The notes below the pieces were generated by a model. That model was not told the DNA's origin and searched no databases. It saw nothing but the letters and a program-made list of their open reading frames with translations. Below are positions 37,554 to 61,000 of a DNA stretch of 64,000 nucleotides, in pieces (position 1 is the first letter of the stretch; every line of letters starts with the position of its first letter). The stretch lies in the IMG/VR virus record IMGVR_UViG_3300017957_001843, positions 1-64,000 of that record; one strand, written 5' to 3'. Origin of the DNA: a virus. A program made the position numbers and the translations under genes.

Positions 37554-37579
37554 TCTTGTTAACCCCTAGTGCTATATGT

Positions 37580-37588
37580 TATTTATTC
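37580..37588 (-). promoter_or_regulatory. Late promoter-like GAATAAATA
   Basis: GAATAAATA on the minus strand, 26 bases before the ATG of the 491-residue fibre gene, in the gap after the 642-residue gene. A 6-bp repeat TTATTC/GAATAA overlaps it. Confidence 0.6.
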
Positions 37589-37590
37589 GT

Positions 37591-39519
37591 TTAAAATGAA
37601 TAAGGTGATGTTGTACTTACGTGATCCCAAGTTGTTCCATTTGATGAGAAAGTCATAAGTGTCCTTGTTGGTGTAAGTATAACACTACCACTTGCTGTAT
37701 TAGATGCTACAATATCTTGTACAACTGATTCATTTTGTGTTCCATTTGAGTCTACATCTAGTGCAGACTTTGTTAGTACACCAGACGTATCTGGTGATAA
37801 AGTTACACTAACGTCTATACCTTCTACTATTGCTCCAGCATAAGATGTAGCGTGAACTTTTGCATTTTTTCCTATGTTAATAGTGTGTGCAGGATACATA
37901 GATTGTATAATAGTAGCAACATTATTTTCCAATGTTGCTCCTGTTCCTAAACCTGTAATATCCATACTAAACACAATAGGCTCTTCGGCAATTGAACTAT
38001 CTACATAGTTTTTCGTTGCCGCGTCTTGAAGATCTGTTGGATCAGCTATTCCTGTAATTTTTTGTGAATCTTGAACTGCAATATCACCTGCTGCTGTGAT
38101 GTTTATGCCATTATTTGAAACAATGGCAAATGTTCCTGCAGAGGGAGATGCTGTTATAGTAGCGCCATCTAAATTTATATCGTCAACATTTAACTCTACT
38201 AATGTTCCTATTCTAACTAAATCATCTGCATACAGTATATTAGATAAACTGTCATTAGTAAGTTTATCCTGGCCGCCTATTTTATAGGCCCTAGTATTAT
38301 CGCTCAAATCAGCATTTACATTTGATGTCCAAGAATTTGTAGCATTTATCCAAGTCCAATTTTTATCGCCCATATCAGAAGTAGATAGTATCAAACCGCC
38401 GTCATCTGCATTAGCCCCTGTCACAACGTTTCCGTCTGATGTTTTAGCAAGTTCGATATTTTTATCTTCTACTCTTAATGTAGCAACGTCTATACTTGTA
38501 GTTTCACCTTCAACTAACAAGTTTCCTGTTACTCTTAAGTCACCGTCTACATCTAAAGTATACTCAGGCAATCTAGACGAAGTACCTGTTGCATCTTTTG
38601 TAAAAATACCTACACGTTCTGTACTTGCATCAATATAAATTGCATCTACTGTAACACTTCCTGCTTGACTAGACTTAACACGTAAACTAATATCTTCGTC
38701 TGTAATTTGATTTTCTATATAAAATCTAGGACCAACTATACGCTGCACAACGTTTTGTGATAAACCTAATGTAATACCACCATTATTTGATACAGTCAGT
38801 GTTCCAGTAGTTGTGCCATTTGACGTTGAAGGTAAAAATGAGTCAGCTGTTCTAACAACACCACCTGCTGTTACTAGAGCATTAGCAGACTCAGCAATAC
38901 CTCTGTATTTAAAATTGTCTTTATCTACAATATTAAACCCTTTGTAGATAATACCATCAGGATTTGCATCAGTAATTAATCCTGTAATTCTTTGACTATA
39001 AGTAGGAGTAAATTCTAGCTCACTAACCACAGCGACTATTATCCCTCCTACATAAAGACTTGCAATAGTTCTCGATCTGCTTTGAGTATCAAGAATACTT
39101 TCTACTTTGAATCCTGTTTCTTGTTGTGTAGCTGTATATCCAGGACCTACTAATATTAAATCGTTACCGTCATAAGCATAAAATTGATTATTAAGATTGT
39201 CTATCCATAAATCTCCTGCAACCATAGTAGGCGATTCGTCTTGAACAAATGGGCCACCAGATGCTTTCCACTGTTGTCCGTCGTAAACTTTAAGCCTTTT
39301 ATCACTTTTATCCCACCATACTTGCCCTTCTAACGGATTACTTGGTGCAGACGTACTTGAAAAACTTTCTAACAACCTTATAAAATTTTCGTTAAATGCT
39401 TCGCCGTAACCAGTATAATTTTTTCCTACCAACGTTAAATTTGTAGTAGTGTTATCTATTTGACCATCTACTAAGTCTGTAAGTATAGTTCCGTCTGTTT
39501 TATTAAGTTGATAGCTCAT
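37591..39519 (-). CDS. Phage tail fibre-type protein with shared head module
   Basis: A 642-residue protein. The head NYTGYGEAFNENFIRLLESF, PLEGQVWWDKSD and LKVYDGQQWKASGG repeats the module of its two neighbours. The middle has DLRVTGNLLVEGETTSIDVATLRVEDKNIEL and WTWINATNSW, patterns common in cyanophage fibre proteins, and the end is beta-rich with no collar domain. It starts one base after the 709-residue gene, so the two are made from one message. The function is probably a fibre or baseplate appendage; the evidence is the family-like repeats and the context. Confidence 0.7.
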   Translation of the reverse strand: MSYQLNKTDGTILTDLVDGQIDNTTTNLTLVGKNYTGYGEAFNENFIRLLESFSSTSAPSNPLEGQVWWDKSDKRLKVYDGQQWKASGGPFVQDESPTMVAGDLWIDNLNNQFYAYDGNDLILVGPGYTATQQETGFKVESILDTQSRSRTIASLYVGGIIVAVVSELEFTPTYSQRITGLITDANPDGIIYKGFNIVDKDNFKYRGIAESANALVTAGGVVRTADSFLPSTSNGTTTGTLTVSNNGGITLGLSQNVVQRIVGPRFYIENQITDEDISLRVKSSQAGSVTVDAIYIDASTERVGIFTKDATGTSSRLPEYTLDVDGDLRVTGNLLVEGETTSIDVATLRVEDKNIELAKTSDGNVVTGANADDGGLILSTSDMGDKNWTWINATNSWTSNVNADLSDNTRAYKIGGQDKLTNDSLSNILYADDLVRIGTLVELNVDDINLDGATITASPSAGTFAIVSNNGINITAAGDIAVQDSQKITGIADPTDLQDAATKNYVDSSIAEEPIVFSMDITGLGTGATLENNVATIIQSMYPAHTINIGKNAKVHATSYAGAIVEGIDVSVTLSPDTSGVLTKSALDVDSNGTQNESVVQDIVASNTASGSVILTPTRTLMTFSSNGTTWDHVSTTSPYSF

Positions 39520-39520
39520 T

Positions 39521-41660: not shown

Positions 41661-42263
41661 TTACCCTGCCAAACTCTGTACACGTACCGTATAATCAATT
41701 TGTATAAGCCTATTAAGAGATTTTTGTACAGGATGGAAAATTACGTGTGTCAAAAGTCTGCCTTCGCCGTCTGCAGAATAACTTCTAAGGCCTAACTCGT
41801 CAAATACATAGGCGTTATTTTGGCTTGATGCTGTATCAAATGCATCTTGGCCGTCTGGTTCGCCGTAATCTAACAAGCAACTTACTAAAATGTCTGTATA
41901 GTTTACACCGCTTAAATGTCTTACTTCGGTCTTGTTGCGTACAGGATCAGTATTGTTAACACTACGTTCATCTACAACTTTTTTGTATGTTTGATTATAT
42001 AACGTAGCGTTTGAACCAGTGCTATTTGGTGTCAAATATGTAATTATACCAGTAGGATCAACACTAGTTCCGCCATTTCCAAAGGCCATTTCATTTATAA
42101 ATCCTTGGCCCTGGTTAGCTAAACTCTCTGCTAATGCAATACTCATATTTTCATAATGAATTGCATTACGTTTATTAATATAAACCTGTTGTGTTTCAGG
42201 ATCATATATTTTTATATGTCCTTGCACTAGTATTCCGCTGTTGTCTTGCATTTTATCGCTCAT
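41661..42263 (-). CDS. Small virion structural protein
   Basis: A 200-residue protein, with GILVQGHIKIYDPETQQVY, a beta-rich start, then ALAESLANQGQGFINEMAFGNGG and EVRHLSGVNYTDILVSCLLDYGEPDGQD, and an end that looks like a beta barrel (YVFDELGLRSYS, RLIQIDYTVRVQ). The pattern is like that of cyanophage structural proteins seen between the baseplate and fibre genes; I cannot match it to a T4 gp number. A late promoter-like element lies 17 bases before the ATG and AGGA is the likely ribosome binding site. Position suggests a baseplate or fibre attachment component. Confidence 0.6.
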   Translation of the reverse strand: MSDKMQDNSGILVQGHIKIYDPETQQVYINKRNAIHYENMSIALAESLANQGQGFINEMAFGNGGTSVDPTGIITYLTPNSTGSNATLYNQTYKKVVDERSVNNTDPVRNKTEVRHLSGVNYTDILVSCLLDYGEPDGQDAFDTASSQNNAYVFDELGLRSYSADGEGRLLTHVIFHPVQKSLNRLIQIDYTVRVQSLAG

Positions 42264-42280
42264 TTGATTTTCCTATACTG

Positions 42281-42289
42281 TATTTATTC
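42281..42289 (-). promoter_or_regulatory. Late promoter-like GAATAAATA overlapping the stop of the giant gene
   Basis: GAATAAATA on the minus strand, 17 bases before the ATG of the 200-residue gene. The GAA TAA part is the last codon and stop of the 5270-residue protein, so the promoter is packed into the coding end. Confidence 0.6.
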
Positions 42290-45200
42290 AGGCAGTTCAG
42301 ATGTTCCTGCACGTAAGAATCTACTTATACTATTGTCCGACTCTCCTAATGTTTCGTTGTTTTGTGTCCATAATTTACCTTGCTTTTTAACAATGCTTAT
42401 TACAGTTCCTTCAATTGGAATTTCACGTAAAACAATACTTTGGCTTATAGGGTCAAATTTTACGTCAGGATCAATTGTCACATCACCTTCTGGACTATCT
42501 TGTTCAAATATTGGTAGATATCTTTTCTGTTCTTGTTTGTCCATACGTTTGCCGCCTACAAAAACCTCAATTTCGTCAATGAATGCAGTCGGATCTGTAA
42601 TTTGATAGACTCTACTTAATCCATCACTTGTAAAGTTTTGAACTATCGAAGTGTCTCTATAAGGAACTGTTTTACTTATGTTTTGATCGTAAACTTTTGT
42701 ACCTATATTGTAAACGTCTTTTATTCCTGTTCCAAGTGTGCCTCTGCGCAATTGTCTAAGTATATTGTTTTCCTTGACAAAGTATTCTATTCTTTCACCG
42801 TCTATAAAAATTATACCTGGTAAATTTTGGGACTTATTCGGTTCAGAAAGATTTTCTCCACTTACTAATTCAATGCGTAAATCATATTGATTTAATGGAG
42901 CTGCAAGTGTTGTTGCAGCAGCATCTAATCTTTTAAAATGTGTTCTATTTAAAATATCTTTAAATTGTCTATAAGCAAATTTGCTTTCACTTGCTTCAGC
43001 TGTAAAGTGCATAATATCTAAAACATCATCGGGTTGTGGAATTTCTTTTAATATTACTTTATCTTTAACTTCGTTGAGTGTATAATCAACTTCAGCCGAC
43101 AATAATGTGCCATTTTTTATTACCCATACATATTTAGAATCAATTGCTGGCTTGCGAAGTTCTATCTCACCTACTGTAAGCCTATTGTATGTAATATAAT
43201 CATTACTATCAACATTTAATGTTGTTCTAGAAACTACATCATAATTCATTCTTTCTATTTCTAATATATCGTGATTGCTGAATTGATATATTTCTATTTC
43301 GCTTTCATCAGCAGGTGGATTTGTTAATGTTACTGTAGTTGGACTTGTTAGTGTGTATTCTCCGTCAGTAATAACGTAAATTTCTAAGGAGTCTCCTGGA
43401 TTTCCTACATCATCTGCTAGTACAACACTACTATTAGCAATATCAAATCGCCATTGTAATTCTTCTACAGTTATTAAAGATCCGTTTAAAAATACTACAA
43501 TATCAGTTGTAAGTAGCGATCCTGAAGGCTGTTGGAAGACTTCAAGGGCAAATTCACGTTGTCTATTTTCTGGTATTGTATATTGAATATTATATCCAGG
43601 TGATAAAATATTATTATCTACTTTAACAATTAAGTTATATTGAGTCGGTTTACTATAAAACGGTGCTGAACTTAATTCAAAATTAGTCTCTGTACCATCT
43701 CCTAAGAATGTATCTTTCTTCAATTGACTATAATTTACAATAGAATTTCCAGCAAATATTGCAATATATACTAAACTATCTTCTGGAGGTGCTGTATCAA
43801 AATCTACAACTAAATTACTATTAGAACTATCTTCTCCAAATGTAACTTCTTGTTTTACACCATCTATACTTGCATACACAGAGATATCTTCTTGTAGTCT
43901 AACATTAGTTGCAAAATGTCTGTTGACACCGTCACCAAAATATGAATTATAGTCTAGAATACTTTGTCCTGCTTGTGACATTGTAACAATGTTCAACGCT
44001 GCGCCTTCTTGCCATATTTCTATATCTGTTACAACAGATCTAATGACTACAACATTATTATTCCAATCTATATCGTAATCTTCACCTTGTGTTAAAATAG
44101 TATTATCTATTTTTACAAATACACTATCTACTGTTCCGGGAGCTACACCTAAATTATAAACGTTTTGTGATTCTACAATTCTATAATTTTGTAAAAATAT
44201 TTTACCTTGGCCGCTGCCATCTCTTGTGTAAACCTTAATATCTAACGTATCAAACACCTGTCCAGGCACTAATTCTTCTGGACCTGCTTGTGCAGCTTCA
44301 CTAATAAATCCGTCACCATCAGTAATGATATCTTCAGCATTTATCCCAGTTGCAGTAGTGTAGGCTAAATCGCCGCCTGATAATTGTGTATCATAACTAT
44401 TAGTGTCAGGTAAAATACTACCGTCGCTTGTTGTTTTTCTAACTATTAAAGTATCACCGTCTAATAATACAACACCAAGATCTTGTAAATTTATAATATC
44501 TGTTGTGCCGTCTCCTGTAATACTTTGTATAATTGCATTTGTGTTTGTTACAGGAAGTGTAGTTCCAAAATTTGGATCGTCTAATCTTACAAAAGGATTA
44601 GGGTTAGGTTCCTGTGAGCTGTAAGATCTTCTATAAACATTATACTCTACACCATTTTCTAGTGGCTTGGTTAATTGAACTGCAATTGTAGACTGATCTG
44701 CTGTGAAAACTTCGTCTTCAAATTGATCGTCGAACTCGTCCCATAGGTCCGTATACCAACCTTTTCTATCCCAGCCAGATATTCCAACAAATGCATAACT
44801 TCTAACTTCTACACCGCCATAGTCTACGCCTGTCATAAGTTGTGCCAGATCCTTACCATACATATCAGATAACGGATTATATGCAAATTGTATTCTATCT
44901 TCTGCTCCTAACATACTTAACGGTATTTGATACTGTACTGTAATAGTATCTCCTAGTGCAGGAGGAGTTGTAAATATTATCTTACCTCTTGAACGTGTAT
45001 ATGATTTTGAGTTATCTATAATATTTTCGTATGTATACTTGCTTCTTAATTGCTCTATTTCATTTACAAAAACTTTTACTTTTGAATTATCTAGTTCTAT
45101 TGGAAATGGTAGATCAAATACAGTTTTATTGTTTGTTCCTTCAAAAGTTTCACTCTTTTGTATAGTCTGGAAGAAATAGTCTCCTAATAATCTATCAAAC

Positions 45201-48200
45201 TTTACAACTATATGCGGAGATCTTACAACACCGTTACCTAAGACTGCAACTGCTTTTGCATCTGTGCCATTTTCGTCTTTTGACCCTTCAATTGTTACAG
45301 TTGGCAAACTTGTATATCCATTACCAGGATTTGTAACAATTATTTTTGTAATCTTTCCATAACCCAAAACTGCTTTTGCTGTTGCACCAGCGCCACCTCC
45401 GCCGGAAATTTTTACTACCGGAGTAAATGTATATTCAGAGCCGCTGTCAGCTATTTCAATATCTTTAATTTGATAGCCAAAATTATCTCTCCAATGCTTT
45501 CTTGGATAGACCAAAGTATTAGTTTCATCTCCAACTAAATTATTTGTTACAAGTGTAGTATTACTAGACCTTATATTTCCTGAAGTAGTATCATAATAAG
45601 GTGAAAGGTCAAAATCAGTTAAAACACTTCCAGTAGGTTCTACGTGATCATAACTATCAACAAATTTCCTTATATTAGTGCTATAGGGTTTAACTTCTTT
45701 GACATATTCTTCATAGTCTTCAAGATTACTATACTTAAATGTGGGTGTCATTTCTAACATACCTAATTTATGTGTAGCTGATATGAAACTTGTTTTGAAA
45801 AACCAATCTACATTAGTTTGTTCAGACAGGATATATCTTAAACTTGCAAAGAATAGCTGATTATATTCAATTTCAATATCACCAATGAATATATCATCTC
45901 TAATTGTTTCTAGAATAATTCTTAATTCTCTAACAGGATTTGTATCATAAAATGCACTATCAAAACTTTTGTTATCATAACCTATGTCATTATTTGCAAA
46001 ATCATACAAGCTCGATGCAAGCTCTATAGTTCCATTTTGTCTGCCGATGGTCTTATAGTTTATTGTATAGTCTTCAGTATTTTCATTAGATATTTTTTCT
46101 AATAGGATCCAACCGCCAGATCCTACATTTTCTATTTTGACAACATCTCCTATCGTATCATCTAACGCCGCTAATTGATAAGAATTTTGGACAGCATAAT
46201 CTATATCTGTAAATTGATTATATCCCTCAGCATAATAATCTACATAATTCCAATATAAACTTACATCATAAGATTGTATTGCTGTTCTTAGCCAATTTTT
46301 TTGTACTTCGTTATATTCATATATCGTCCATTTATTAAATGCTGTGCTATCTGCATTTACAAGGACACTAAATTTTCTTAACTTTATGGCTACATTATCA
46401 TTATATCCGACTCCTTGTGAAACAACATCAACATTTGTAATTTGTCCAAGGTTATTAATAGATATTTCAAAAACAGCACCTGATCCGTCACCTTCTATTT
46501 GATAACTAGGTTCAATTTTATATCCTCTGCCGGGATCTGTAATTTCGACACGTAAAATTTTTCCGTTTACAACTATAGGTGTAAGTTTGGCAGGAGTGAC
46601 TCTATTTGTGCTTACAAATTCTAATTCGTCAAAGGTATCAATTGCAAGATCATATCGGCCTGTAAATGTGCTTGGAGCATTTTCTTTTTGCAAAAGATTG
46701 TTTATATTTTTTTCATCTACAATAGGAGATTGTGAACAAACAAAGTTAATTCTTTCTACTGTTTGCTTTAATGCTTCTATCCTATTAACAAAAATACTTT
46801 GTCTTGGTTTATTTTGAATGCCAATCCTTTTTGCAGGGGAAATTTTTGGATCAGGTACAGGACGCAAAGTACTGTCAACACCTATTAAGCTATCAAACCA
46901 TTTAAGTTCTATATCTTTATTAGGCTTGCTTGAGCTTAAATTCTCCGAAATTATCTGGTATTGTGTATGTTCATTTTGTTCTTTGCCAACTTCTTCTTTA
47001 TACTTGATGTTTAACACAATGTCATCCGAAGTAATAATCTTATCTAGATTATTAATAACAAGCTTGTTTTCTGCAATTAAACTAACATATCTATAACCTG
47101 ATTGTCTAGGTCTTGCAATTAATTGGACCATATTTCTAAGATTTAATTTTCTATTAGGCAAATTTGGTACAGTTTGTTTGTTTTCTACCCAGAAATAATA
47201 TTTTGTACTAAAAGTTTGACTGACTTGATCATATTCTAGTTTTGCACTATACTTTGTATCTCCATAAATTGCTGTGCCGCTTATTCCTAGAGAAAGGCCA
47301 TTATCTGTATCTGCTAATTGATTCCATTGGCTAGGCAAATAGTCACTTTCAACCCACTCATATATGTCAATTGTTGCTCCAGGTAATAATCTATTCCATT
47401 CATTTCTTTGGAAGGTAGTAGATCCTTGGTATGGGAAACTAAATCTTGCAGTGCTAACATTCCACCAAACTTGTCCAACATAACTAGCACCCCAGAATAA
47501 TTTAGGATCAACGTCTTTATCTGCAATTGGACCTACATTGTATTTTGCAGGATCATAATTTAGTTTGTATGTTAATTCTTGGTCTACTATACCTGCAATT
47601 TTACCTTGTATTGGATCAATATAATCAATATAAGATATTATTTCATTTGATCTTTTATTGTAAACAAACATACCGTCTATTTTATCAAGGTCTACAGGAA
47701 GTCGGCTAGATCTAAGTGACGTCCAACTCTTTGTATTTTTTACTTTTCTATAGTCTATAACAAAGCCGCGTTCATTGCCTATAACATTTTGTGCATAAGG
47801 TAATCCTACGTATATATGATTTCCTTGTGATAAAATATTATCACCAAAATTCTCTCTTTGATTAGGATACAGTAATTGTTCCGAATATATCAAACCATTA
47901 CCGATATCTTCAAAAATGTAAACAGTGCCTTTGTCTACTTTCCTATTAGCAAAAGTTGTAAAGTTTTTATCAAAAGTAGTAGCATCTCTTTCTTCACTAT
48001 CAGTATCCAAAATATAGTTAATTTCATTTAACCTATTGACATAAGTGTCAAATCTAGTAGGAATTACCATATCACCATTTAAACTAGAAATAGCTAAATT
48101 TTCATTGCTATAATCTAAGCTATATCCAAATCTTTCTACTTCTTCATTATTAGGAGATTGTAAAGTAAATGTAGGTGCTGTAACTCCGTTATCTTCTATA

Positions 48201-51200
48201 CCAAATTTGTTTGCATTATAATCGTAACTGTAAATCCAAACAGCTCCTTGGTCTATCTTATTCGCATCATCATAAGGAACACTTACTGCTATCGAGCTCC
48301 CGTCGGGTTTCAAAGATATTGAATTTGCCCATAAATTTTGATCAACATATACATCAGGTGTTTCTGAATCATTGTCGTGATCTTTCAGTACATAACTACT
48401 ACTTGGTGCCTTTATAATTTGTTTTAAATTATATTTCTTTTGTTCTAAATTATAAACAGCAATTGCTGATTCAAATGTGCTATCAGATAACATTTGTTTT
48501 GTTTTTACAATTAAAGTTTCGCCGTTTTCGCTTACATCAAATGCATCTGCAAATTGTTCAATATTTTCAATTGGATCATACACTTGTTCAAATAGTGTTG
48601 CGAAACCTGTAAGATTTGGAAGATAACCTAGGTAATCAATACTATCAATCTGCGATTCCCAAGAAGTATTTGTTAAACTAGGCGCATCTGCTCCTGCACT
48701 AATATTTGTAAGAGCTTTCCAGAATGTACCGTCTTGTAAGACAATATTGTTTTCTGCATAAGAATACAAATCATTAAATTGTCCTCTGTACTGTTCGTCT
48801 TTGCCTCTTCTCCAAGAAATATTGTTCCATAATACAGGATTTCGTATATCTTCTTCAGCTGACGAAGCAATATCTTTGTTTGCACGGAAATAATCATCTT
48901 TGAATATTACTACATCACCTTTTGTATACGCCGCATCTAATTTATATCCTCCTGTCAAATTAACAGTAGTATCAACACCTTGATTATATATTTCTATTGC
49001 TCCAGGATTTGTGCGCCATTCATATGGATCATTACGCGAATCACCCGAAGGCTCGTTAGATATAAACAGTGTGTATAACTCATTATTTTTACTAATTTTT
49101 ACTTTTGATCCAAAACGCTTATCTTTACCGGCATATTCTGATGCTATTGCAATCTGGAACTGATAAAGTCCTGTATTGTCTCTTCTATAAATTGAAACTA
49201 CACCCTGATTCTCGTATCCGCCAGTTCCGAATCTATCAGCCGGTATATTAAAAACCTGTGTATAATCTTTGTTAAGACTGTACGGAGCATTCTGTAATCT
49301 ATCAATTCCACTAAGTGTATCTTCATTAAAAAAGAAATATTCTTGATCAATTATAGGTATTACATCATTCCAATTTTTGCTAACAGGAAAATTCCTACCA
49401 GCATCTATTAATAATAATTTTCCTATTATAGAGTTTCCAATTGCAATGTCGTCATCAACACTATCTACTGTGCCTATTACTTGATCAGGATCTCCTGCAC
49501 CTCTTAGTGAAGGATTACTTAAACGTTTTATTTGGTATCTACCTATATTAGTCTGTTGTTCAAAATTGCCGGGTTGTAAATCTGTCCTTACTTTAACATA
49601 TACTCTTACTCTATTAAAGTTTCTTTGATAAAATACTACTTCTGCTGCACTAGTTGTGTTACTTGTAAGTGCAAGGCCGCCAAAGCCGTCTCTCGGAGTT
49701 TGGACATCGACTAGTATATCTCCAATTTCTGGTTCGAACACATCGCCTTGGAAGTCAAATTCTGTAAACTCAAAATCAATGAATCCGTCCCATATATCTT
49801 CGACTAGTTGATTTTTCGTCAAGTCATTAATACTAATACCACTTGTTGTAATATCATAGTCAGGATTATCAAAAAATTTCATTCCAAAAGTTTGATTTGG
49901 ATCTTGTAAAAATCTTGCATACAGTTCGTCTGAATATTCTTTAGCAGCCCTTATAACCAGTTTGGTGCTAGGACGGGCAAGCTCTGTACCGCCATTATCG
50001 CCTGTATAGGCTAAATGAGAAATAAAACTAGCTTGGTTTTTACGATTTATATAAGGCCCTATCGTACCTATTGCATCTTGTATATTGCTATACAAATTAA
50101 TAGGATGTTGCTCTACAATTTCGCTTGCTAATCTTACATCAACATAAACTAAACCTCTGCCCACATCATAATAAGTTGAATTATTTCTATATGTAAATTC
50201 TTCACCAGCAAATGTAGTTGTAGTATAACCACTTGTAGGTGCTTCTGAAGTCCTGTACGTTTTGAATAACCAATATCCGCCCACAGCGTCTGTAGTCGCA
50301 TAGGTGTTTTCTTCAGTATAAAATCCTACAAAGTCGTCGTTACTTGTATATAATTCTCCTGTTACGCTAAATGTACCATTAGCATTTATTATGTAAATTA
50401 CTGCACTATCTTCATTTTTAGCAGTATAATATACTTCACCTGCGCCTGTGTCTGTAACTACCCTATCACCGATAGTCGGTAAAGTAACAAAAGCATCAAT
50501 GTAAAAAATATGATCAACTTTTTCATTGATAATATGTTCTTGTCTTAAAAATTCAGGAGTAATTTCAGTTATTTGGTTGTTAAATGGATAATAATTGTCA
50601 AGTGTAGGATACGTAAAACTTCTTATATTCCACGCTAAACTTACGCCGTCACCTACATCAGTACCATTATACATATCAGCTGGTGCTCTAACTAAGAAGT
50701 GGTCAACAATATTATTAGGCAATCCGGGATCACCTGCTACAAGTAATGTTAGACTTGTACTATCAGCATCTGCTTCTTCGGTAATATCAATGTAAGAATC
50801 AAAAGTTGAAAATGGTTGATCTTCAATACGAGGTAAAATATTTCTATTTGCCCTCCATAGAGATTCTCTATATCTTACTATATCACCTTTTACATATGAT
50901 GTGTCAGGATCGAAATCTCCCTTGTATCTTGTCTTTACATAACTAGCATTTGGGGCGCCTATTGCTAGATATTCTCCGTCAATGGATACATCTATTGATT
51001 GTCCAAAATTACTGTATATTGGATCAAAATATGCAAACGGATTATCTTCCTGTACCCAATATTCAGCTATTTCTGCATCGCTAAACACATTGCCACTAGT
51101 ATGAGATTGGACAGATTTCCAATATGTGCGTGTACTATCTATATCGTAAACAACAATAGTGTTTCTTCGATATAAAGTATTAGGTAACCAAGGTCTGATT

Positions 51201-54200
51201 CTATCAGGCGGAAATATACTTTGATCAACTTGTAGTAAATTACTGTCACTTCCTCTTCTATAATAATCTACTTTGCCGTTTTTATCTTTGCCGGAAGATA
51301 CAAAGAAATTTTTATTATCGCCAGTTACAGCCATACTATCAGAAAATCCTTGATCTTCATCATCATAATCACTTATGTTAATAATAGATTGATGAAGTTT
51401 GTATGCAGGGTTATTTTCAATTACTTTCCAGTCACCATTTTCATAATCCTCAATCCAGAATTTTTGTTTATCATATATTTTTGATTGTGCTAGTAGATTT
51501 GCTGTTTCTACATTTTCTGTCCTAACATTTCTTAACTTAGTAACAATGTAATTTTTTCCTGTAAAGGTTTCTGGTTGGTTACCCGAAATGGTGCTAAAAC
51601 GTATTTTATCTAGCTTTATACTTTCAACTTTGTAAAATCCAGTTAGGTTAAATTCATCTGCACCTTTAACACCTATAAAGTCGCCTTCTTTTACATTACC
51701 ACCGGCCCAGCGATCTACTTTTAATTCCCATATAGGATCTCCGTCATCATTTGCAGTCAACGTCTCGGTTAATTCTTGACCGTACACGTCGGCTTCAATA
51801 TGTTGATACACTGCCCAAGGATTATTTCCTGTTTCTACTACCCAAATGTAGTCTCCAATAGCTAATTGATTTACATCTCCATCGGGCAACTCGCTTTCGG
51901 TGCCTGCTACAAATGTAACATCTTCTTCGTTAACAAAACCTCCTGATTTAATAATCTCTTCTGTTAAAATCTTTGTAGGAAATGGTTTATGATTATATTC
52001 CAACGGAGTGTCGTACATTTGAAAAGGTAATATTCTATAGTGTCTGTCAAAATTTGTATCAGGTAAAGATTGCACAAGTTCTATAGCCTGAGGAGACTCC
52101 TGTATTTTATCTTCTTTGAAGTTTATTTCTATTTGTTTTTTATTATCAACATTACCATATCTTCCTACTTGTAAAGCCCATTCTTCGTAGAATTCTAAAG
52201 TATTTTCTCCTGCTGTACCGAGAGATTTGAAAAGCTTATCTAAAGCATTTTGTGTCCCTTTATCTTGGATATATCCTTGATAAAATTTATACTGACTTAC
52301 ATCATCAGGAATAATATTTGCAAGATATTGACGTTTTTGAAATCCTGTCAATTGCTTTGCCATTTGTTGTAAATTTATATCAAACCCTTGCGTGTCTAAA
52401 CTGTAAAAATCTGTAAACTGGTTAATTCTATAATCAAAATTTGTTATTAATTCTGACTCGGGCTTTTCTGATAATCTATACCAATCGTTACTATTAAATG
52501 TACTAGAACCTGGAACATTTTTTGTTGCCACATAATAGAATTGCTTGTACTTTACTAAAGTACCTATATCATAATCTTTCCAAGTTGTCCAATCTGTAAC
52601 TTTTGCATCATCAAAAACAAATCCCGGTATGTTTAAACTACCATTCCAATCTGCAGCTCTATAACCTGTAACTTTAATTCGCTCTTGTCTATACCCAGTT
52701 GAAGGTTGGAAAATAATATCATTAAAAACTGTGTTGTTATCAATCAATACAACGTGTTCTTTATGTACCAAAGGCAACACAGCACTATACAAACCTTCAG
52801 TCTCATTATTAGTTTGTATACCGAAGCTATTTTTATCTCTCAGTAAACTTGTAAATTCTCTAGACAATGGTTCTCCATTTGCTTGTAAAATAGAGTAAGG
52901 ATAAAAATCATCATTTATGTTATCAACAACAAGATAATCTTTTTGGAAATTAAATCTATTAGCAGCAGGCGACAATGTTATAACTGTTCCGGACGCCCAG
53001 CCTTGTGTTGTCCAGAACAAAAATTCTTTACAAATTTGATCCCAATCGTTTACAATGCCTTCGCCTTCTACAAAGTTGAAATCAAATCCTATCTCTTTGA
53101 GATATTCACCATAACCTAACAAAAAGTCTACTACTTCTTGTGAATTTTTAAGTGTTTGCCCGTAAGGAATAGATAAGGTTTCATTTTTATCAAAATTACG
53201 TTTGAACAAAGCTGTCTTGCCGCCAACTGTTGGAACTTCAGGTAATTTTACTAAATTAGTTGTAGTGAAAGATTCACCTGTTGTGTGAGTTTTTGTAACT
53301 CTGTAAAAATTATTCACGTATTCTACTATTGTATCTTTTACATATAGTTTTTCTGCTTCCCAATCTGTAGTCGCTTCAGATACTCCGCCAACTGACACTG
53401 GAACTGCTTTACTACCTATAATAGGTGCATAGTAGTTAAAAAACGGATTTTCGTTATTATATCCACGTATCGTAAATCCGCTGGCTCTCTTTTCTACAAC
53501 TACTCCGCTATAAGATGCTACAAACTGAGGAGAACTTGTGTTAAAGAATATTTCATAGTTTTCTGGAGGTATGTAAATACCTCCATCTTCTAATTGTTGT
53601 TGAGGACTTCTGCTATCTAGAATTAAGTTCAGCTTTGTTTTATCACTAAAGCTTCCTAGTTTAAATCCTAATTGATTTGTAATTGACAAAACTTCTTGTT
53701 GATAATCATTGTATACTGTAAGAATATCACTTGCTACTAAATTGTAGATGTAATTAACAAGTCCGGACGTTGAAATCCGTAAATTATCTGCAAAGGTATT
53801 AGGAAAAATTATTTTATTTGTTGTTAAATTTTTTCCTGTTTCTTTATAAACCTGTTGACCTGCAAGGTTAGTAATTGTTCTCGATACATCAAAGCCTTTT
53901 CCTAATGTATCTGAAGGCTTGTTTAAAATTAAGCTGGTAATAATAGCGAATGGATAATCCGAACTTCTTCTCCAGGCAGTTTCTACAGGAGATTCGTCGC
54001 CAAAACTAAAATTATTTGTACTTTGTCTTTGAACAAACTGATTCACATAACCACTTCTTTGTGGTGCTTTTACAAACCCTTTTGTATCAACAGGAATGTG
54101 ACTTGTGATATTAGGTTTAGCATATTTCTCAGTGTATCTTACATTCCCCGGTTCTGCAATTTTTCCTACTTCGATATCTCTCCATAAAATTAAATTATCA

Positions 54201-57200
54201 GATGTGTAAGGAGCAGGACCATACACAGTATCCCACCATTTAGGTTTTCTTTTGATGCCAAGTATTTCCCAAGGATGAGAATGTGGACGATCTGTGCCAA
54301 AAGCTCTTTTGTAAACGCCTCTCCAGAATCCAGGCAAAAGCTTACCATTAGGATCTAATGCAGATGAATAATTGTATGTAAACGGATTTGTTCTATCGTA
54401 GAAAAAATTATCAGTATAATCAGCATCAACAAATGTTAGCCATTTTTTGAAAAACTGTAGTAATGAACCATTTACTTCTGACCTATCAAATTCATTATCA
54501 CCTTTATCGTTGCCTTCAAATGCATCTATATCTATACCGGTTTTATCATAGTCAACTTTGATATTGTTGAAGATACGTTTTTCTAGTTCTAATAATAATT
54601 CATCTCTAAAATCCAAATATGCTCTAACATAACTGCCGTCGTGTCCTCTAATCATAGGTATGCCTACAGGATACGCATCTATTTCTATGTTGTCATTTAC
54701 ACCGTGGAAGCCACCAGTATCAGGCATATACAAGTTCCTGTTATGACCTTTAATTTGATGTATATGGAACGATCCTGTGCCGCCGTTTTCTACGTCTTTA
54801 TCAATAGCTGCTTGTTGTGTAGTAAACACAGGGTAGAACCATCCCCTAATTCCTGCATTCTTAAATCCTTCAGAAACTTCGCCGTATATTTTATACTCCT
54901 TACCATCTACAGAACTTTCTGTTTGATAAGTGTCGTCTAATGTAAGTTCAGGATAGTATTTTGGATATAACCCTAGTTTACTTGGTGTCGGTGAAATGTA
55001 TGATCCGTCAGTAGTTTCATATTCGTATATTTCAATTAAATCATTTTCTATTTGGCCTGCACTGATAATAACATACCCTTGATTGTCAAAAGTATAGTCT
55101 TTTTCAAAAGTAAGTTGTTTTCCGTTTAGATATATGTATACAGACTTAGATGATAATTCTTCTAACCCAAACGAATTTGTAAGTGCATACTGTGTGATTC
55201 TTGAATCTAATACCCGATAATCTATTTTGTTGTAAGGTCCATAACCTAACATATCTGAAAAATAGAAGGGTTGAGATTTTACTTTATCTTTATTGATAGC
55301 TGCAAGTATTTTATCAACGTGTTGTTTTGTTTCTCCATCAAATCCTAAAGTTGTTGCAGTATCTAAAAACACTCTTTTGAATCTGTTGTATTCAGTATTT
55401 GCATATTTAATTGCTTTAATCAAATTGTATTTTTTATTTGTTATATGATATAACGGCAGATTGATAGGCGCAGCGTGTTTAACAAATCGTTTTCCGTATT
55501 TGTTTATATTACCAAGGTCTCTGATATTTCCTCTACCAGGAAATACTCCTTTAAAGTCATTGATTTCACCGACCATACTATCAACGTGGTCAATAACTTC
55601 GCCCAATGTAAATTCTGATATGTCTTCGTTTAACGGATTTCTATCTAAGTTGATAGGAACTTCGTAGTATCCATTATTATTTTTTTGCGATTTACTATCT
55701 GATTTTACAAGCAAAACATCATTTACAGATAAATTAGATGTAAATCGTATCAACGCTCTCTGGTTAATCCTGTTTATTGTGTAATCAACATTCTTATATT
55801 GTAATTTGTTATTTACATATACAATTAATCGTAAGTCATTTAAATCGCCTGCATTATTATATACTCTCACAGCAAAATCATTTACTTGTGATATGTCTAC
55901 AATTCTTTGATCAATCACCCATTGTTTACTTTGAATAGGCTGCGATGACCAGCCATTGACATAATCAAATTCTGTTCTAGTTTTGTATTTGCGTAAAAAT
56001 GCAATGTCAGTGTTCACTGTTACAATTTGTTCATTTTCCTGTATAGTAAATGAATCATTTTGCAGATTAAATTCAAAAACAATGTCACCTGAGTTTTCTA
56101 ATGATCTGTAAGTTAGCGGAAATCCTAATTCGTCGTCTTCTGTTCCTTGGCCTTGTTTGTAAGAAAATATTTTTGTTCCCTTAAACGTAGAAGAATTAAA
56201 CACATCTAAATCGCCATAGGGGTTACCTTGAGGACAACACAAATCAAACATAGGAGATTGATTAATCTTATTTTTTACTTGTGCAAGTGCCCATTCATTG
56301 TTATGATAATGATAAATTTGTCCGCTGTTTTTATTACCTTGTTTTACTAAAACATTTTCTAAAGATAAAGGCGTAGTGTCTTCAGTTTCTACTAAAGATA
56401 TTTGACGCCTATTGTTGATTGTTATAAACTTAACTTCGTAAATTTTACCTCTAACTATTAAATCTGTATCAGCAGCAAACAATACTCGCATACCTTCTGC
56501 AAGTTCAATACCGTCTACATTATATCCAATAGTTCCTTCGATAGTAGAAAATACATCACGTGTAAACGTATCTATAAGATCAACGTCTTGTTTGGCTTCA
56601 ACACCATAATCGTAAAGTTTCAGCCCTGCATTAAATTCAATTATCGGTCTTTTAGCTCTAAAATTTTCATCTATATTAATAGGTAAATTATTATATGTAT
56701 AACTTTTTTCTATTACATCTTTATGAAACCACTTATTATACCTAGACCAAGAGTTTTTATCTTTAGCTGCACGATTTATAATAATATAATCTTTGTCTTG
56801 CGCATACGAGCTTGCATTTGAAAATGGTAAAACATCAAATGCATCGCTGTCATAAGGTACTAAAACATCTTGATTGTAAACAGCCGGAATCAATAGATCC
56901 TTTTCATTTATTAAGACAATTTTGTCTCCTACACCTTCTACATACCACAAGTCTTCTTCGTATTTTTTAGGTGTAATATTGCCTTGAAATTTAATTTTCA
57001 TTCCGTTTGATAATTCAACACCGTTTGCACTAGTATATTGTTTTTTACCTAAAACTTCGTTGCCAACATCTAAAAATGTATTTTCTTCTATATCATATAT
57101 TCTAATAACACCGCTTGTATCTTGGTCATTTTTTGAAACATAATATAATCTATCTGGTGCACTAAAAGGTATTGTAAATTCAATGGTGCCTCTTTCAATG

Positions 57201-58096
57201 TATGCTGTTGCTACTTCTTCTCCGTCTTCGCCTAATTTTCTTATACCATCAGGATAAAGAGTGCTTACATTTTCTCCTTCTTCGAATTCAATGCTACCAC
57301 TATCAGGTAAAACAATAAACTCACCTGTATCGTAACTTAAATTATTTGCATCATACAAACTGCCATCAAACAAGCCGTTGTCTCTAAGTCCTTCAGTGCC
57401 TGCGGTTATAACAGCAGTTCCGGGAGTAAATGATCTACTAATAGCAATAGCCATAGGATGTCCTGGCGCATCTATTTCAAATCTATAAGTTTGACCTCTA
57501 TAAAGTTTTATAGAGGGGTTACTTACAAAACCGTCATTAAATATATACGTTGTATTATCGCCTTGATCTGACGTTGTTACAGTGTATGTGCTTGTAACTT
57601 CTTGACTTTGTCCTCGTACTGGCACAGATAAAGGACCAGTAGGTGCCCAATAGTATTCTCTAAAATTAACAAACTTATCCCAATCAATATGCGGGTTCCA
57701 ACTATAATATTCTGAACTGTTTAATCTACTGTGGTTTTTTGTATTAGCACCAAAATAATTTAATGTGCCAATATAGTCATTATAATCTTTATAAAAAGTA
57801 ACATTATTAGACTCGTCTTTTATTACAGTTGCAGGTTCGAGCTGATATGCTTCTCTAGAATCGTTTACATCATTCAAATAATTATCAGAGGGGTTAAATG
57901 ACTTTGCAGTTTTACGTCCTACATAATCATTTAATTTTTCAGCAACGCCGGGCTGTATAAGTTGATCTATTGTTCCTTGTAAGAATTTTTTATTTGTAAC
58001 ACTGCGGAAAAATTTAGGAATAAAATCACTAGCAGTACGGTTTTGTTCTCCGTCAGCTGGCAATGCACTTTCATTCTGTTCGTCGTTGTAAGACAT
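42284..58096 (-). CDS. Giant (5270-residue) virion structural protein, baseplate-region
   Basis: A single uninterrupted reading frame of 5270 codons, the largest in the window. It begins DFIPKFFRSVTNKKFLQGTIDQL, a start I associate with large cyanophage structural proteins. A beta-sandwich with PSIKLYRGQTYRFEIDAPGHP lies at about residues 160-260. At least five Y-x-K-x-D/N-x-V-x-Y motifs of carbohydrate-binding CBM5/12 style are spread along it (LYVKDTIVEY, YDIGTLVKY, SYVKGDIVRY, AYTKGDVVIF, LYRRNTIVVY), with FG-GAP-like repeats (GEYLAIGAPNASYV, SSIAVSVPYDD) and GxGYxxxPxVxIxG-type repeats near the end. T4 gp7 stands at the same place and is far smaller. It overlaps gp6 by one base (TAATG). 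Virion location is inferred from context. Confidence 0.75.
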   Translation of the reverse strand: MSYNDEQNESALPADGEQNRTASDFIPKFFRSVTNKKFLQGTIDQLIQPGVAEKLNDYVGRKTAKSFNPSDNYLNDVNDSREAYQLEPATVIKDESNNVTFYKDYNDYIGTLNYFGANTKNHSRLNSSEYYSWNPHIDWDKFVNFREYYWAPTGPLSVPVRGQSQEVTSTYTVTTSDQGDNTTYIFNDGFVSNPSIKLYRGQTYRFEIDAPGHPMAIAISRSFTPGTAVITAGTEGLRDNGLFDGSLYDANNLSYDTGEFIVLPDSGSIEFEEGENVSTLYPDGIRKLGEDGEEVATAYIERGTIEFTIPFSAPDRLYYVSKNDQDTSGVIRIYDIEENTFLDVGNEVLGKKQYTSANGVELSNGMKIKFQGNITPKKYEEDLWYVEGVGDKIVLINEKDLLIPAVYNQDVLVPYDSDAFDVLPFSNASSYAQDKDYIIINRAAKDKNSWSRYNKWFHKDVIEKSYTYNNLPINIDENFRAKRPIIEFNAGLKLYDYGVEAKQDVDLIDTFTRDVFSTIEGTIGYNVDGIELAEGMRVLFAADTDLIVRGKIYEVKFITINNRRQISLVETEDTTPLSLENVLVKQGNKNSGQIYHYHNNEWALAQVKNKINQSPMFDLCCPQGNPYGDLDVFNSSTFKGTKIFSYKQGQGTEDDELGFPLTYRSLENSGDIVFEFNLQNDSFTIQENEQIVTVNTDIAFLRKYKTRTEFDYVNGWSSQPIQSKQWVIDQRIVDISQVNDFAVRVYNNAGDLNDLRLIVYVNNKLQYKNVDYTINRINQRALIRFTSNLSVNDVLLVKSDSKSQKNNNGYYEVPINLDRNPLNEDISEFTLGEVIDHVDSMVGEINDFKGVFPGRGNIRDLGNINKYGKRFVKHAAPINLPLYHITNKKYNLIKAIKYANTEYNRFKRVFLDTATTLGFDGETKQHVDKILAAINKDKVKSQPFYFSDMLGYGPYNKIDYRVLDSRITQYALTNSFGLEELSSKSVYIYLNGKQLTFEKDYTFDNQGYVIISAGQIENDLIEIYEYETTDGSYISPTPSKLGLYPKYYPELTLDDTYQTESSVDGKEYKIYGEVSEGFKNAGIRGWFYPVFTTQQAAIDKDVENGGTGSFHIHQIKGHNRNLYMPDTGGFHGVNDNIEIDAYPVGIPMIRGHDGSYVRAYLDFRDELLLELEKRIFNNIKVDYDKTGIDIDAFEGNDKGDNEFDRSEVNGSLLQFFKKWLTFVDADYTDNFFYDRTNPFTYNYSSALDPNGKLLPGFWRGVYKRAFGTDRPHSHPWEILGIKRKPKWWDTVYGPAPYTSDNLILWRDIEVGKIAEPGNVRYTEKYAKPNITSHIPVDTKGFVKAPQRSGYVNQFVQRQSTNNFSFGDESPVETAWRRSSDYPFAIITSLILNKPSDTLGKGFDVSRTITNLAGQQVYKETGKNLTTNKIIFPNTFADNLRISTSGLVNYIYNLVASDILTVYNDYQQEVLSITNQLGFKLGSFSDKTKLNLILDSRSPQQQLEDGGIYIPPENYEIFFNTSSPQFVASYSGVVVEKRASGFTIRGYNNENPFFNYYAPIIGSKAVPVSVGGVSEATTDWEAEKLYVKDTIVEYVNNFYRVTKTHTTGESFTTTNLVKLPEVPTVGGKTALFKRNFDKNETLSIPYGQTLKNSQEVVDFLLGYGEYLKEIGFDFNFVEGEGIVNDWDQICKEFLFWTTQGWASGTVITLSPAANRFNFQKDYLVVDNINDDFYPYSILQANGEPLSREFTSLLRDKNSFGIQTNNETEGLYSAVLPLVHKEHVVLIDNNTVFNDIIFQPSTGYRQERIKVTGYRAADWNGSLNIPGFVFDDAKVTDWTTWKDYDIGTLVKYKQFYYVATKNVPGSSTFNSNDWYRLSEKPESELITNFDYRINQFTDFYSLDTQGFDINLQQMAKQLTGFQKRQYLANIIPDDVSQYKFYQGYIQDKGTQNALDKLFKSLGTAGENTLEFYEEWALQVGRYGNVDNKKQIEINFKEDKIQESPQAIELVQSLPDTNFDRHYRILPFQMYDTPLEYNHKPFPTKILTEEIIKSGGFVNEEDVTFVAGTESELPDGDVNQLAIGDYIWVVETGNNPWAVYQHIEADVYGQELTETLTANDDGDPIWELKVDRWAGGNVKEGDFIGVKGADEFNLTGFYKVESIKLDKIRFSTISGNQPETFTGKNYIVTKLRNVRTENVETANLLAQSKIYDKQKFWIEDYENGDWKVIENNPAYKLHQSIINISDYDDEDQGFSDSMAVTGDNKNFFVSSGKDKNGKVDYYRRGSDSNLLQVDQSIFPPDRIRPWLPNTLYRRNTIVVYDIDSTRTYWKSVQSHTSGNVFSDAEIAEYWVQEDNPFAYFDPIYSNFGQSIDVSIDGEYLAIGAPNASYVKTRYKGDFDPDTSYVKGDIVRYRESLWRANRNILPRIEDQPFSTFDSYIDITEEADADSTSLTLLVAGDPGLPNNIVDHFLVRAPADMYNGTDVGDGVSLAWNIRSFTYPTLDNYYPFNNQITEITPEFLRQEHIINEKVDHIFYIDAFVTLPTIGDRVVTDTGAGEVYYTAKNEDSAVIYIINANGTFSVTGELYTSNDDFVGFYTEENTYATTDAVGGYWLFKTYRTSEAPTSGYTTTTFAGEEFTYRNNSTYYDVGRGLVYVDVRLASEIVEQHPINLYSNIQDAIGTIGPYINRKNQASFISHLAYTGDNGGTELARPSTKLVIRAAKEYSDELYARFLQDPNQTFGMKFFDNPDYDITTSGISINDLTKNQLVEDIWDGFIDFEFTEFDFQGDVFEPEIGDILVDVQTPRDGFGGLALTSNTTSAAEVVFYQRNFNRVRVYVKVRTDLQPGNFEQQTNIGRYQIKRLSNPSLRGAGDPDQVIGTVDSVDDDIAIGNSIIGKLLLIDAGRNFPVSKNWNDVIPIIDQEYFFFNEDTLSGIDRLQNAPYSLNKDYTQVFNIPADRFGTGGYENQGVVSIYRRDNTGLYQFQIAIASEYAGKDKRFGSKVKISKNNELYTLFISNEPSGDSRNDPYEWRTNPGAIEIYNQGVDTTVNLTGGYKLDAAYTKGDVVIFKDDYFRANKDIASSAEEDIRNPVLWNNISWRRGKDEQYRGQFNDLYSYAENNIVLQDGTFWKALTNISAGADAPSLTNTSWESQIDSIDYLGYLPNLTGFATLFEQVYDPIENIEQFADAFDVSENGETLIVKTKQMLSDSTFESAIAVYNLEQKKYNLKQIIKAPSSSYVLKDHDNDSETPDVYVDQNLWANSISLKPDGSSIAVSVPYDDANKIDQGAVWIYSYDYNANKFGIEDNGVTAPTFTLQSPNNEEVERFGYSLDYSNENLAISSLNGDMVIPTRFDTYVNRLNEINYILDTDSEERDATTFDKNFTTFANRKVDKGTVYIFEDIGNGLIYSEQLLYPNQRENFGDNILSQGNHIYVGLPYAQNVIGNERGFVIDYRKVKNTKSWTSLRSSRLPVDLDKIDGMFVYNKRSNEIISYIDYIDPIQGKIAGIVDQELTYKLNYDPAKYNVGPIADKDVDPKLFWGASYVGQVWWNVSTARFSFPYQGSTTFQRNEWNRLLPGATIDIYEWVESDYLPSQWNQLADTDNGLSLGISGTAIYGDTKYSAKLEYDQVSQTFSTKYYFWVENKQTVPNLPNRKLNLRNMVQLIARPRQSGYRYVSLIAENKLVINNLDKIITSDDIVLNIKYKEEVGKEQNEHTQYQIISENLSSSKPNKDIELKWFDSLIGVDSTLRPVPDPKISPAKRIGIQNKPRQSIFVNRIEALKQTVERINFVCSQSPIVDEKNINNLLQKENAPSTFTGRYDLAIDTFDELEFVSTNRVTPAKLTPIVVNGKILRVEITDPGRGYKIEPSYQIEGDGSGAVFEISINNLGQITNVDVVSQGVGYNDNVAIKLRKFSVLVNADSTAFNKWTIYEYNEVQKNWLRTAIQSYDVSLYWNYVDYYAEGYNQFTDIDYAVQNSYQLAALDDTIGDVVKIENVGSGGWILLEKISNENTEDYTINYKTIGRQNGTIELASSLYDFANNDIGYDNKSFDSAFYDTNPVRELRIILETIRDDIFIGDIEIEYNQLFFASLRYILSEQTNVDWFFKTSFISATHKLGMLEMTPTFKYSNLEDYEEYVKEVKPYSTNIRKFVDSYDHVEPTGSVLTDFDLSPYYDTTSGNIRSSNTTLVTNNLVGDETNTLVYPRKHWRDNFGYQIKDIEIADSGSEYTFTPVVKISGGGGAGATAKAVLGYGKITKIIVTNPGNGYTSLPTVTIEGSKDENGTDAKAVAVLGNGVVRSPHIVVKFDRLLGDYFFQTIQKSETFEGTNNKTVFDLPFPIELDNSKVKVFVNEIEQLRSKYTYENIIDNSKSYTRSRGKIIFTTPPALGDTITVQYQIPLSMLGAEDRIQFAYNPLSDMYGKDLAQLMTGVDYGGVEVRSYAFVGISGWDRKGWYTDLWDEFDDQFEDEVFTADQSTIAVQLTKPLENGVEYNVYRRSYSSQEPNPNPFVRLDDPNFGTTLPVTNTNAIIQSITGDGTTDIINLQDLGVVLLDGDTLIVRKTTSDGSILPDTNSYDTQLSGGDLAYTTATGINAEDIITDGDGFISEAAQAGPEELVPGQVFDTLDIKVYTRDGSGQGKIFLQNYRIVESQNVYNLGVAPGTVDSVFVKIDNTILTQGEDYDIDWNNNVVVIRSVVTDIEIWQEGAALNIVTMSQAGQSILDYNSYFGDGVNRHFATNVRLQEDISVYASIDGVKQEVTFGEDSSNSNLVVDFDTAPPEDSLVYIAIFAGNSIVNYSQLKKDTFLGDGTETNFELSSAPFYSKPTQYNLIVKVDNNILSPGYNIQYTIPENRQREFALEVFQQPSGSLLTTDIVVFLNGSLITVEELQWRFDIANSSVVLADDVGNPGDSLEIYVITDGEYTLTSPTTVTLTNPPADESEIEIYQFSNHDILEIERMNYDVVSRTTLNVDSNDYITYNRLTVGEIELRKPAIDSKYVWVIKNGTLLSAEVDYTLNEVKDKVILKEIPQPDDVLDIMHFTAEASESKFAYRQFKDILNRTHFKRLDAAATTLAAPLNQYDLRIELVSGENLSEPNKSQNLPGIIFIDGERIEYFVKENNILRQLRRGTLGTGIKDVYNIGTKVYDQNISKTVPYRDTSIVQNFTSDGLSRVYQITDPTAFIDEIEVFVGGKRMDKQEQKRYLPIFEQDSPEGDVTIDPDVKFDPISQSIVLREIPIEGTVISIVKKQGKLWTQNNETLGESDNSISRFLRAGTSELPE

Positions 58097-61000
58097 TAGT
58101 AACTAGATCCTCCGCTGTTAGATGAGCTTGTGTAAGTTGTACTACTGGTCGAAGTTGTACTACTGGTCGAAGTTGTACTACTGGTCGAAGTTGTACTACT
58201 AGTTGAGCTTGTTGCATTTGCACTTGCAATTCCACTTGTTGTAGAAGTAGAAACACTTGTGACTACACTTCCGCTTGCTTGTAATTCTGTAGCTGTAATC
58301 TCATCTATGATTTGTATATCAGAAACTTGCGCTGCACTAATAAAAATTTCATCAAATTCTGATTTTATTTCAAATAGTGATCCAAAACTTTGAGTTTCTT
58401 TTTTTGGAACAATTAAAATACTTTGTAACTTAGGACTTAACGTGTTCATTATGTATGCACTTAGTTCTTGGAAATAGAAAGTTTCTCCAAAGTCCCAATT
58501 TTCTAATTCAAAAAATTTGTCTACAGCAGAGATAATATCTGCTTTTAATTCGTTTTCATTTATGACTAAATTTTTGTTACGCACAATTTTAAAATTAACC
58601 TGCAAATCTTCTTTTGCCTTGCTACCAAACAATATTTTATACTTAACAGGATGATATACTATTTCATCACTTATTGACTTAATTGCATTTATAGAAGATC
58701 CGTAAGATCTTGTCAACACATCATTACTTGTAGGTAAAGGCATTACATCGATTGCACCTTTTATAAATTTACGCATTTCTACATCATAATTTTTTGTAAG
58801 TAGATATGTATCTATTATATTGCTTGCGCTCGGATCGATTCTATAATTATCGTCTGCAACGTGGATGTAATGGAATTTTAAATTGGATCTTCCAGTAAAC
58901 GCTTTATAATCAGTAGAAAGAGTCAAATTTCCTGCGGCTTTATTTAATTTTTTAAATACTTGTTCTTCTACCAAATAAAATACTTGACCTTCTACGTGTG
59001 TAGAGTACGAACCGATTGCATTTTCATTTGTTACAATTTTTACTTCTTGGGTTCCGGCTGTAGTTATTTCATTCGCAAAAAATTTAAAATCTTCTACACC
59101 ATCACTTGTTGTATATTTTTTTTGAAATACCAATTTATTTGCAATATCAATTAAATTGTTATTCTCATCAACTAAATCATTGAAAATATCTAAATTATCT
59201 ACTGCTCCGTCATCATCTAAATCAAAAAACTGCACTTGTATTTTTCTAGTGTCAACATAGCCTTCGGCATCTCTGTAGGCATCACTAATGCTCCATACAT
59301 AATCTTTTGAATATGGTTCGCCACTTGCAGCTTGTCTGTTTATACTTAAAATTTTAATTTGGTCTCTAATAATTTTTCCTGTTTTAGGATCGTAAATTTT
59401 ATCTGCTGCATCAAAGAAAAATCTAATTTCGTTTGCACTTTCAAAAATATATCTTTGATTTCTGTTAGTGATAGTATACTTTTCTCCGTCATTTGTGAAA
59501 TTTAGTAGCCAACTTGAATCTAAATTAGCAGCCGTAGTATCTCCCGATTTACCTAAAGCAAAATCATTTACCGAATTAACATTTTCTGCCAATACAAGTT
59601 TCCACTCTCTAGTAGTTGTATCATATCTTAAAGCAAAATCTTTATAAGAAAACGTTTGATCTATTATTTGTATTTTTAAATCATCACTTAAAACTTTAGA
59701 AAATTTTGCTACAATTGAAACTAATTGGCTGTTATCATTAACTACGTCTGTAAGACTAATATCTCCTATAGTATTCACCACGCTATCGCCTTCATTATTA
59801 ACAACAGAAACTTTTGTCCATTTATATAACGAAGCACCAAATTGTTCAGCATTTGTTGTTAATGTGCCATTTGGTAAAAAGTATTGTTGTGTTTGTCCTT
59901 GCATAGGTGCTTTGAATTTCAACATAGACCCTGTTTCTAAAAATCTAAGATTATTACTTGTAAAGGAAGATACTTTAAATCTATTTGTTGTATCATTTTG
60001 TGATACTAAATTGCCTGTGTTTTCATTTATTGCTTGATACTCGTTTTTCCAAATTGCAGACAAATCAATAGTATCGATTTGAGGAAATTCACTATAATAA
60101 AAATTACGCAAATTTGTAGATTGTATAATACCTTCTATTGTATTATATATTACACCTTCAATATCAGTTTGTGTATTAAACGTAAACGTGGAAGTTGAAT
60201 CATAATATTCTTTGTAAATAACACCATCATCAGCAAATAGGCTTGTGTTAGAATATTTGCCACTTGCATCTATTAAATCAAAATATCTGCTTATACCACT
60301 AGATATCCTGTTCACACTTTTTGTTTTAATAATATCTTGGCTTATTGCTAAAGGCCCTATATTATAATCTTCAGCTGTAATTAATCTGTTTTGCGTATAA
60401 TAAGTTGCAGGAGCATTTTGTTTTATACTTGTATTAGTTTCTGTCGTTGTACTGTTAGAAACAGTATAATTTAGTCTTAGGCCAATTGTTAATTTTTCTA
60501 AATTTCCGGCTCGCCCTTGATAAGGTATTTCAATGTTGACATTACCTATACCATTGGGTGTAACAACCATATTTTTATTTGCACTTGTTCTATAAAAAAC
60601 TTTAAAATTGCCTGCAGGTAAATTTCCAAATACACCGTCACTAAAAACTAAATTTATTCTATCACCTACTCTAGTTGTAACAGCAAATACGTTTCTAATA
60701 CCTTCAAACAAACTATTGTAAATTACATTATTACCTTCAACATTATCTAATCTTGTCCAAGGAGTTGTTTCAAACCCATTTGAATCTGTATTGTACAACC
60801 AAATGTCATCGTTATTAATATTTTCGGCATCAATTGCAATTATCTGATTAGGTGTAGGATTTGTTACATTGAATGTACCTGTATCAAGATTTCCTTGCCT
60901 AAAGTGCATAAAAAATCCAGTGTTTATACTACCTGCTCCTTGACCGTCATCTCTAAACAAAAATGCAGGACTGGTTCCAGGTACAGGAGGTTCTTCTACA

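Follow-up and report, generated by a model that had tools for sequence, protein, structure and literature searches.

The minus-strand open reading frame at 42284..58096 of the window (the whole stretch of DNA analysed here, positions 1 to 64,000 of a viral contig of 75,243 bases) is a real gene of 5270 codons, and its product is probably a baseplate virion protein, a wedge scaffold chain replacing the gp7/gp8 layer of T4. On its sequence matches, the protein is a member of an already known family, the T4-like jumbo-phage 'virion structural protein' family PHROG 10938, and not of a new one. What is new is its anatomy, in which two core blocks flank an insertion slot, predicted in the window to hold a closed β-propeller. 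Since neither homology to T4 wedge proteins nor a solved structure was found by sequence, gene order is the basis for placing the protein in the particle.

The giant gene and its neighbourhood

The frame starts with ATG and all 5270 codons are open, as the earlier note had it; the strand, which that note left unstated, is minus. The predicted protein has a mass of 597.6 kDa, in place of the ~570 kDa given previously, a pI of 4.6 and four cysteines only. In 36 viral contigs, a set that includes several duplicates (the same virus sampled twice), probes from both the N- and the C-terminus matched within a single uninterrupted frame of 5101-5626 aa, and one of these contigs (G036, 103,879 bp) was identical to the window across both terminal probes. 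Two further contigs of a sister lineage (G039/G040, L112) have a shorter giant frame of 4693 aa, without roughly residues 4650-4950, and a probe match there crosses an in-frame TAA. Among the nearest relatives the frames were mostly 4400-5630 aa long, and in more distant marine contigs mostly 4400-5370 aa, with shorter values often reflecting frames cut at contig ends. Thus, the size that had been called extreme for a virion protein is so in absolute terms, but within this lineage it is the norm.

Across 24 full-length copies every 100-aa bin was conserved, with a mean identity to the window of 0.32-0.74, and both ends carry a strictly conserved sequence (LPKFFRT.ANKKFL at the N-terminus, ARFLRAGTSELPE at the C-terminus). 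Six pairs were tested for selection: dN/dS over the whole gene was 0.06-0.14, and in each 500-aa bin dN was much smaller than dS. From one end to the other, the gene is therefore under purifying selection. Together with the same frame in 36 contigs, the dN/dS values rule out a chance reading frame or an assembly artefact.

The location between gp6 and the fibre genes was likewise confirmed. Directly upstream of the giant gene lies that of a gp6-like baseplate wedge protein of 1191 aa (58096..61671; PHROG 10646, PHROG 219, TIGR02243), and its stop codon is overlapped by one base by the start codon of the giant, which suggests that translation of the two genes is coupled. Further upstream are a gp25-like baseplate wedge protein (61731..62168; Pfam GPW_gp25) and a hub/tail-lysin-like protein with an M15 peptidase (62181..63998; it extends beyond the window and has 931 aa in the complete contig). 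Directly downstream is a conserved 200-aa protein (41661..42263; PHROG 11259), also present in PA5oct, Atu_ph07, RaK2 and SCTP-2, and then three collar/fibre paralogues of 709, 642 and 491 aa with an N-terminal domain in common (36078..41650). All of these genes lie on the minus strand and are transcribed in the order hub/tail-lysin-like, gp25, gp6-like, giant, 200-aa protein and collar/fibre paralogues. The synteny from gp25 through gp6, giant and 200-aa protein to collar was found in the window, in a relative (G032), in PA5oct and in Atu_ph07, and the giant also directly follows the gp6-like gene in PA5oct, Atu_ph07, RaK2, 121Q and CBB. Wherever both were present (159/159 loci), gp6 was upstream of the giant and shared its strand. 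Of 12 larger relatives, 8 hold the T4-type major capsid protein Gp23, which points to affiliation with T4-like myoviruses. With relatives encoded in at least 555 IMG/VR stretches, the lineage carrying the giant is a very common, uncultured T4-like group.

Other features of the region were recorded in passing. The M15 domain of the hub/tail-lysin-like protein is of the D,D-carboxypeptidase kind (window 62181-63998; L002 5182-7977), and T4 gp5 has a lysozyme at its place. Of the three fibre genes at 36078-41650, one has a terminal collar domain and another a terminal Peptidase_G2 autocleavage domain. Two very long fibre-like reading frames (1795 and 1651 aa) at 25669-36068 have a G+C content of 0.38-0.45 vs. 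about 0.32. The window also holds at least six radical-SAM genes, at 3266-5345 (plus strand), at 14369-20764 (minus strand) and weakly also at 5335-6810 (minus strand), with a UDP-glucose dehydrogenase gene beside them (9978-11126).

The jumbo-phage family and its core blocks

PHROG 10938 matched three segments of the giant (E 3.8e-144, 3.6e-96 and 4.7e-56). The family is almost unstudied and is filed in PHROGs under 'head and packaging'. By tblastn, about 58 cultured jumbo-phage records matched the N-terminal segment at about 25-31% identity, among them the PA5oct group, RaK2/K64-1, 121Q/PBECO4, CBB, GAP32, Munch, Atu_ph07, Phosso and SCTP-2, and the cultured homologues measure ~3300-4450 aa, from 3323 aa in 121Q to 4449 aa in Atu_ph07. 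A DNA-level search for the giant in phages gave no match, and an NCBIfam search gave noise only. In Klebsiella phage K64-1 (NC_027399.1) the homologous region carries annotations for many short hypothetical proteins, and in its near relative RaK2 for a single gene; the split annotation possibly reflects alternative frames.

The architecture was mapped by running HMMs, each built on a 300-aa window of the marine relatives, against the giants of six jumbo phages. An N-terminal core block (residues ~20-2150, 51647..58039, seen also by tblastn) is collinear in PA5oct, Atu_ph07, RaK2, 121Q, SCTP-2 and CBB, and a C-terminal core block (residues ~3450-4300, 45197..47749) is common to all six; these and all giant segments below are on the minus strand. 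Within the first block, an AlphaFold2 model compared by VIA-align predicts a cupredoxin-like domain at residues 166-339 (57080..57601; Z 9.8, 98 residues aligned, rmsd 2.2), a part that is variable among relatives and missing in some. Copper binding by this domain was rejected, as the usual motif C..H..M is absent from the sequence. When residues 1-1200 were searched as a whole against PDB folds, cupredoxins filled the list; two phage rows (9k09_U and 9f4b_FA) were of low probability (0.33 and 0.28) and were left unused, and the absence of T4 gp7 from that list proves nothing; in this whole-model search only residues 166-339 were well tested. Searched by sequence, the PDB held no solved structure matching the window, RaK2 or PA5oct giants, and hits to nanobodies and pectin lyase were weak β-rich noise.

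Towards the C-terminus, a GxGY doublet domain (residues 3841-3918, 46343..46576) and a second GxGY domain (residues 4209-4269, 45290..45472; matching PHROG 701 and 460) precede a lineage-specific tail (residues ~4300-5270, 42287..45199), which has repeated 'DYT' β-domains (4335, 4656, 4860, 4985) and finishes in a conserved sequence, RFLRAGTSELPE. In all, at least six 'DYT' β-domains, two GxGY regions and five CBM5/12-like modules are spread along the protein. The previous description of a single giant chain of many small domains, with CBM5/12-like, FG-GAP-like and GxGY motifs, is thus supported.

The insertion slot

Between the core blocks there were only weak homology hits, and the length of the gap differs greatly among members. 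In the window it is filled by residues 2243-3455 (47732..51370), which AlphaFold2, fold search and slot comparison predict to be a closed FG-GAP-type β-propeller with inserts. The AlphaFold2 model of residues 2256-3455, built on 41 sequences, had a pLDDT of 83.8 and a pTM of 0.74, and VIA-align matched it, over the full extent of the model, to WD40 and integrin α propellers (Z 18-19.7; 271-336 aligned residues). Because the reference structures are seven-bladed and seven FG-type motifs are readable in the sequence, the modelled propeller would have seven blades. A nested insert of ~550 aa (residues ~2400-2945, 49262..50899), the start of which holds CBM module 3, is absent from some marine relatives.

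The slot measured 114 aa in RaK2, 255 in PA5oct, 386 in SCTP-2 and 1376 in Atu_ph07, and among marine relatives 412-463 aa in L182/L175, 549 in L191 and 1301 in the window (aligned spans, all approximate). These lengths form a series from nearly empty (RaK2) through a plain propeller of 412-463 aa and a propeller with CBM of 549 aa to the 1301 aa of the window. FG-GAP_2 scores of the slot contents were 50.4 bits in L175, 56.5 in L191 and 22.6 in L182 (cut-off 23); the window slot scored 17.6 bits, below the cut-off of 23, and the slot contents of Atu_ph07, PA5oct and SCTP-2 gave no FG-GAP_2 score over it. The Atu_ph07 slot (L005 22894-27471) is about as long as that of the window and is without an FG-GAP or CBM match.

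The five CBM5/12-like modules occupy residues 1578-1612 (53261..53365), 1835-1869 (52490..52594), 2393-2431 (50804..50920; Pfam PF02839), 3049-3079 (48860..48952) and 3105-3136 (48689..48784), and resemble CBM5/12 (PF02839) in their motif Y..GD.V.Y..N..A. A segment holding two modules, including the third, scored 30.8 bits against PF02839 vs. a cut-off of 26.2; single modules alone reached 20.6-21.4 bits, below that cut-off, and the remaining ones emerged only when the family was searched iteratively, several as short or weak matches. The motifs reported earlier are therefore present, in the sharper form of five modules, and the FG-GAP motifs and CBM modules are now assigned to a closed β-propeller. 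The propeller with its CBM modules is probably a sugar-binding unit. We propose that a closed domain with neighbouring ends would have been inserted into a loop of the core, followed by insertion of CBM modules and the ~550-aa segment (2400-2945) into its blades.

Place in the particle and relation to known systems

Two relatives connect the family to virions. PA5oct gp355 is flagged ESI-MS/MS in its record, and analysis of phAPEC6 virions detected gp245 (381.88 kDa) by 17 unique peptides covering 7.6% of it (PMC7247149). In phAPEC6, which according to that paper is the same species as 121Q, gp245 adjoins a 'baseplate wedge' protein of 131.18 kDa, gp244 (PMC7247149). The masses that we computed for 121Q gp582 (381.87 kDa) and gp583 (131.21 kDa) equal those of gp245 and gp244, identifying gp245 as the homologue of the giant. 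As mass spectrometry records the PA5oct and phAPEC6 members in virions, the window giant is, by analogy, presumably a virion protein as well; the published phAPEC6 data bear on presence, and not on position, copy number or intact length (PMC7247149).

Gene order bears out the earlier statement that the giant stands where T4 has gp7/gp8. That it replaces them is plausible, given that gp7 and gp8 HMMs found the T4 control and nothing in eight relatives and four jumbo phages. As a chain of the wedge, its core would bind the gp6 ring, probably with one chain per wedge, and its C-terminal side may carry the 200-aa protein and the collar-type fibres. It would then be a peripheral wedge scaffold linking the gp6 ring to the fibres and displaying probable glycan-binding domains. 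The propeller and CBM modules might face outwards and, in what is the weakest link of the model, attach to glycans on the host surface when contact is first made.

The giant could instead be a peripheral fibre, whisker or tail decoration, encoded in the baseplate operon and standing outside the wedge. It consists largely of β-domains of fibre kinds (DYT, GxGY, CBM), and phAPEC6, which has a homologue, bears hairy, unassigned fibres on both its tail and its capsid (PMC7247149). However, linkage to gp6 is strict across distant phages, separate collar/fibre genes lie downstream, and the core is common throughout its length, unlike host-recognition fibres, in which the ends are usually the most variable parts. 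Weighing these points, we consider a decoration unlikely.

We give still less credence to a chain in which several T4 wedge proteins (gp7, gp8 and gp9/gp10) are fused, an idea also raised in the earlier note for gp7/gp8. The giant does sit exactly at the gp7-gp9 place, gp7 and gp8 were both undetected elsewhere in the relatives, and the cupredoxin-like domain at 166-339, the sole T4-type link, is also carried by some cyanophage gp9-type connectors. Yet when overlapping 600-aa segments of the giant were compared by hhalign with T4 gp5, gp6, gp8-gp12 and gp53 and with a gp7 family profile, no segment exceeded 3.4% probability, which leaves a fusion unsupported. The sensitivity of this comparison for single T4 sequences is limited, since in calibration the gp6 family of the window was collinear with T4 gp6 over 300 columns at only 16.7% probability (E 0.0015). 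Further, in all members the shared segments make up one core with a single slot, with no trace of formerly separate genes. A polyprotein cut after translation into several virion proteins would account for the extreme length, and peptides covering 7.6% of the phAPEC6 homologue are too few to demonstrate that its chain is intact, but with both ends conserved in all relatives and the frame never split within the core this is very improbable.

We thus retain the wedge scaffold as the preferred reading. T4-like jumbo-phage baseplates are without recognisable gp7 and gp8, and the family that most obviously could form the wedge layer they lack is PHROG 10938. The layout of core plus slot would guide what to seek in baseplate maps and points to the part likely to decide host contact. 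More tentatively, and with doubt prevailing over the proposal as a whole, in this abundant T4-like group a ~600-kDa chain might take the roles of both gp7 and gp8 and bear a sugar-binding propeller/CBM unit for first contact in a lineage-variable slot. If true, host-binding modules would be exchanged within a structural protein of the wedge as well as at the tips of fibres.

Among known systems, the closest are the PHROG 10938 members RaK2 gp465, 121Q gp582 / phAPEC6 gp245, CBB gp236, PA5oct gp355, Atu_ph07 gp180 and SCTP-2 gp140. The window giant has the same post-gp6 position and the same core blocks in the same order, with matches over three stretches; it differs from these six (~3320-4450 aa, about 30% identical) in its 5270 aa, its own C-terminal tail and the predicted propeller with CBM modules in its slot, which was not detected in the six. 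With T4 gp7/gp8 it shares the post-gp6 position and, as we infer, a partner role in the wedge, but it has no detectable sequence relation to them and is five times the length of gp7. The modelled propeller resembles the FG-GAP propeller of the integrin α-chain in fold (Z 19.7 to α-M, 330 residues aligned, rmsd 3.2, 13% identity), and that propeller likewise has domains inserted in its blades. WD40 propellers score equally; the likeness to integrin is one of fold and repeat motif only, and no common function is claimed.
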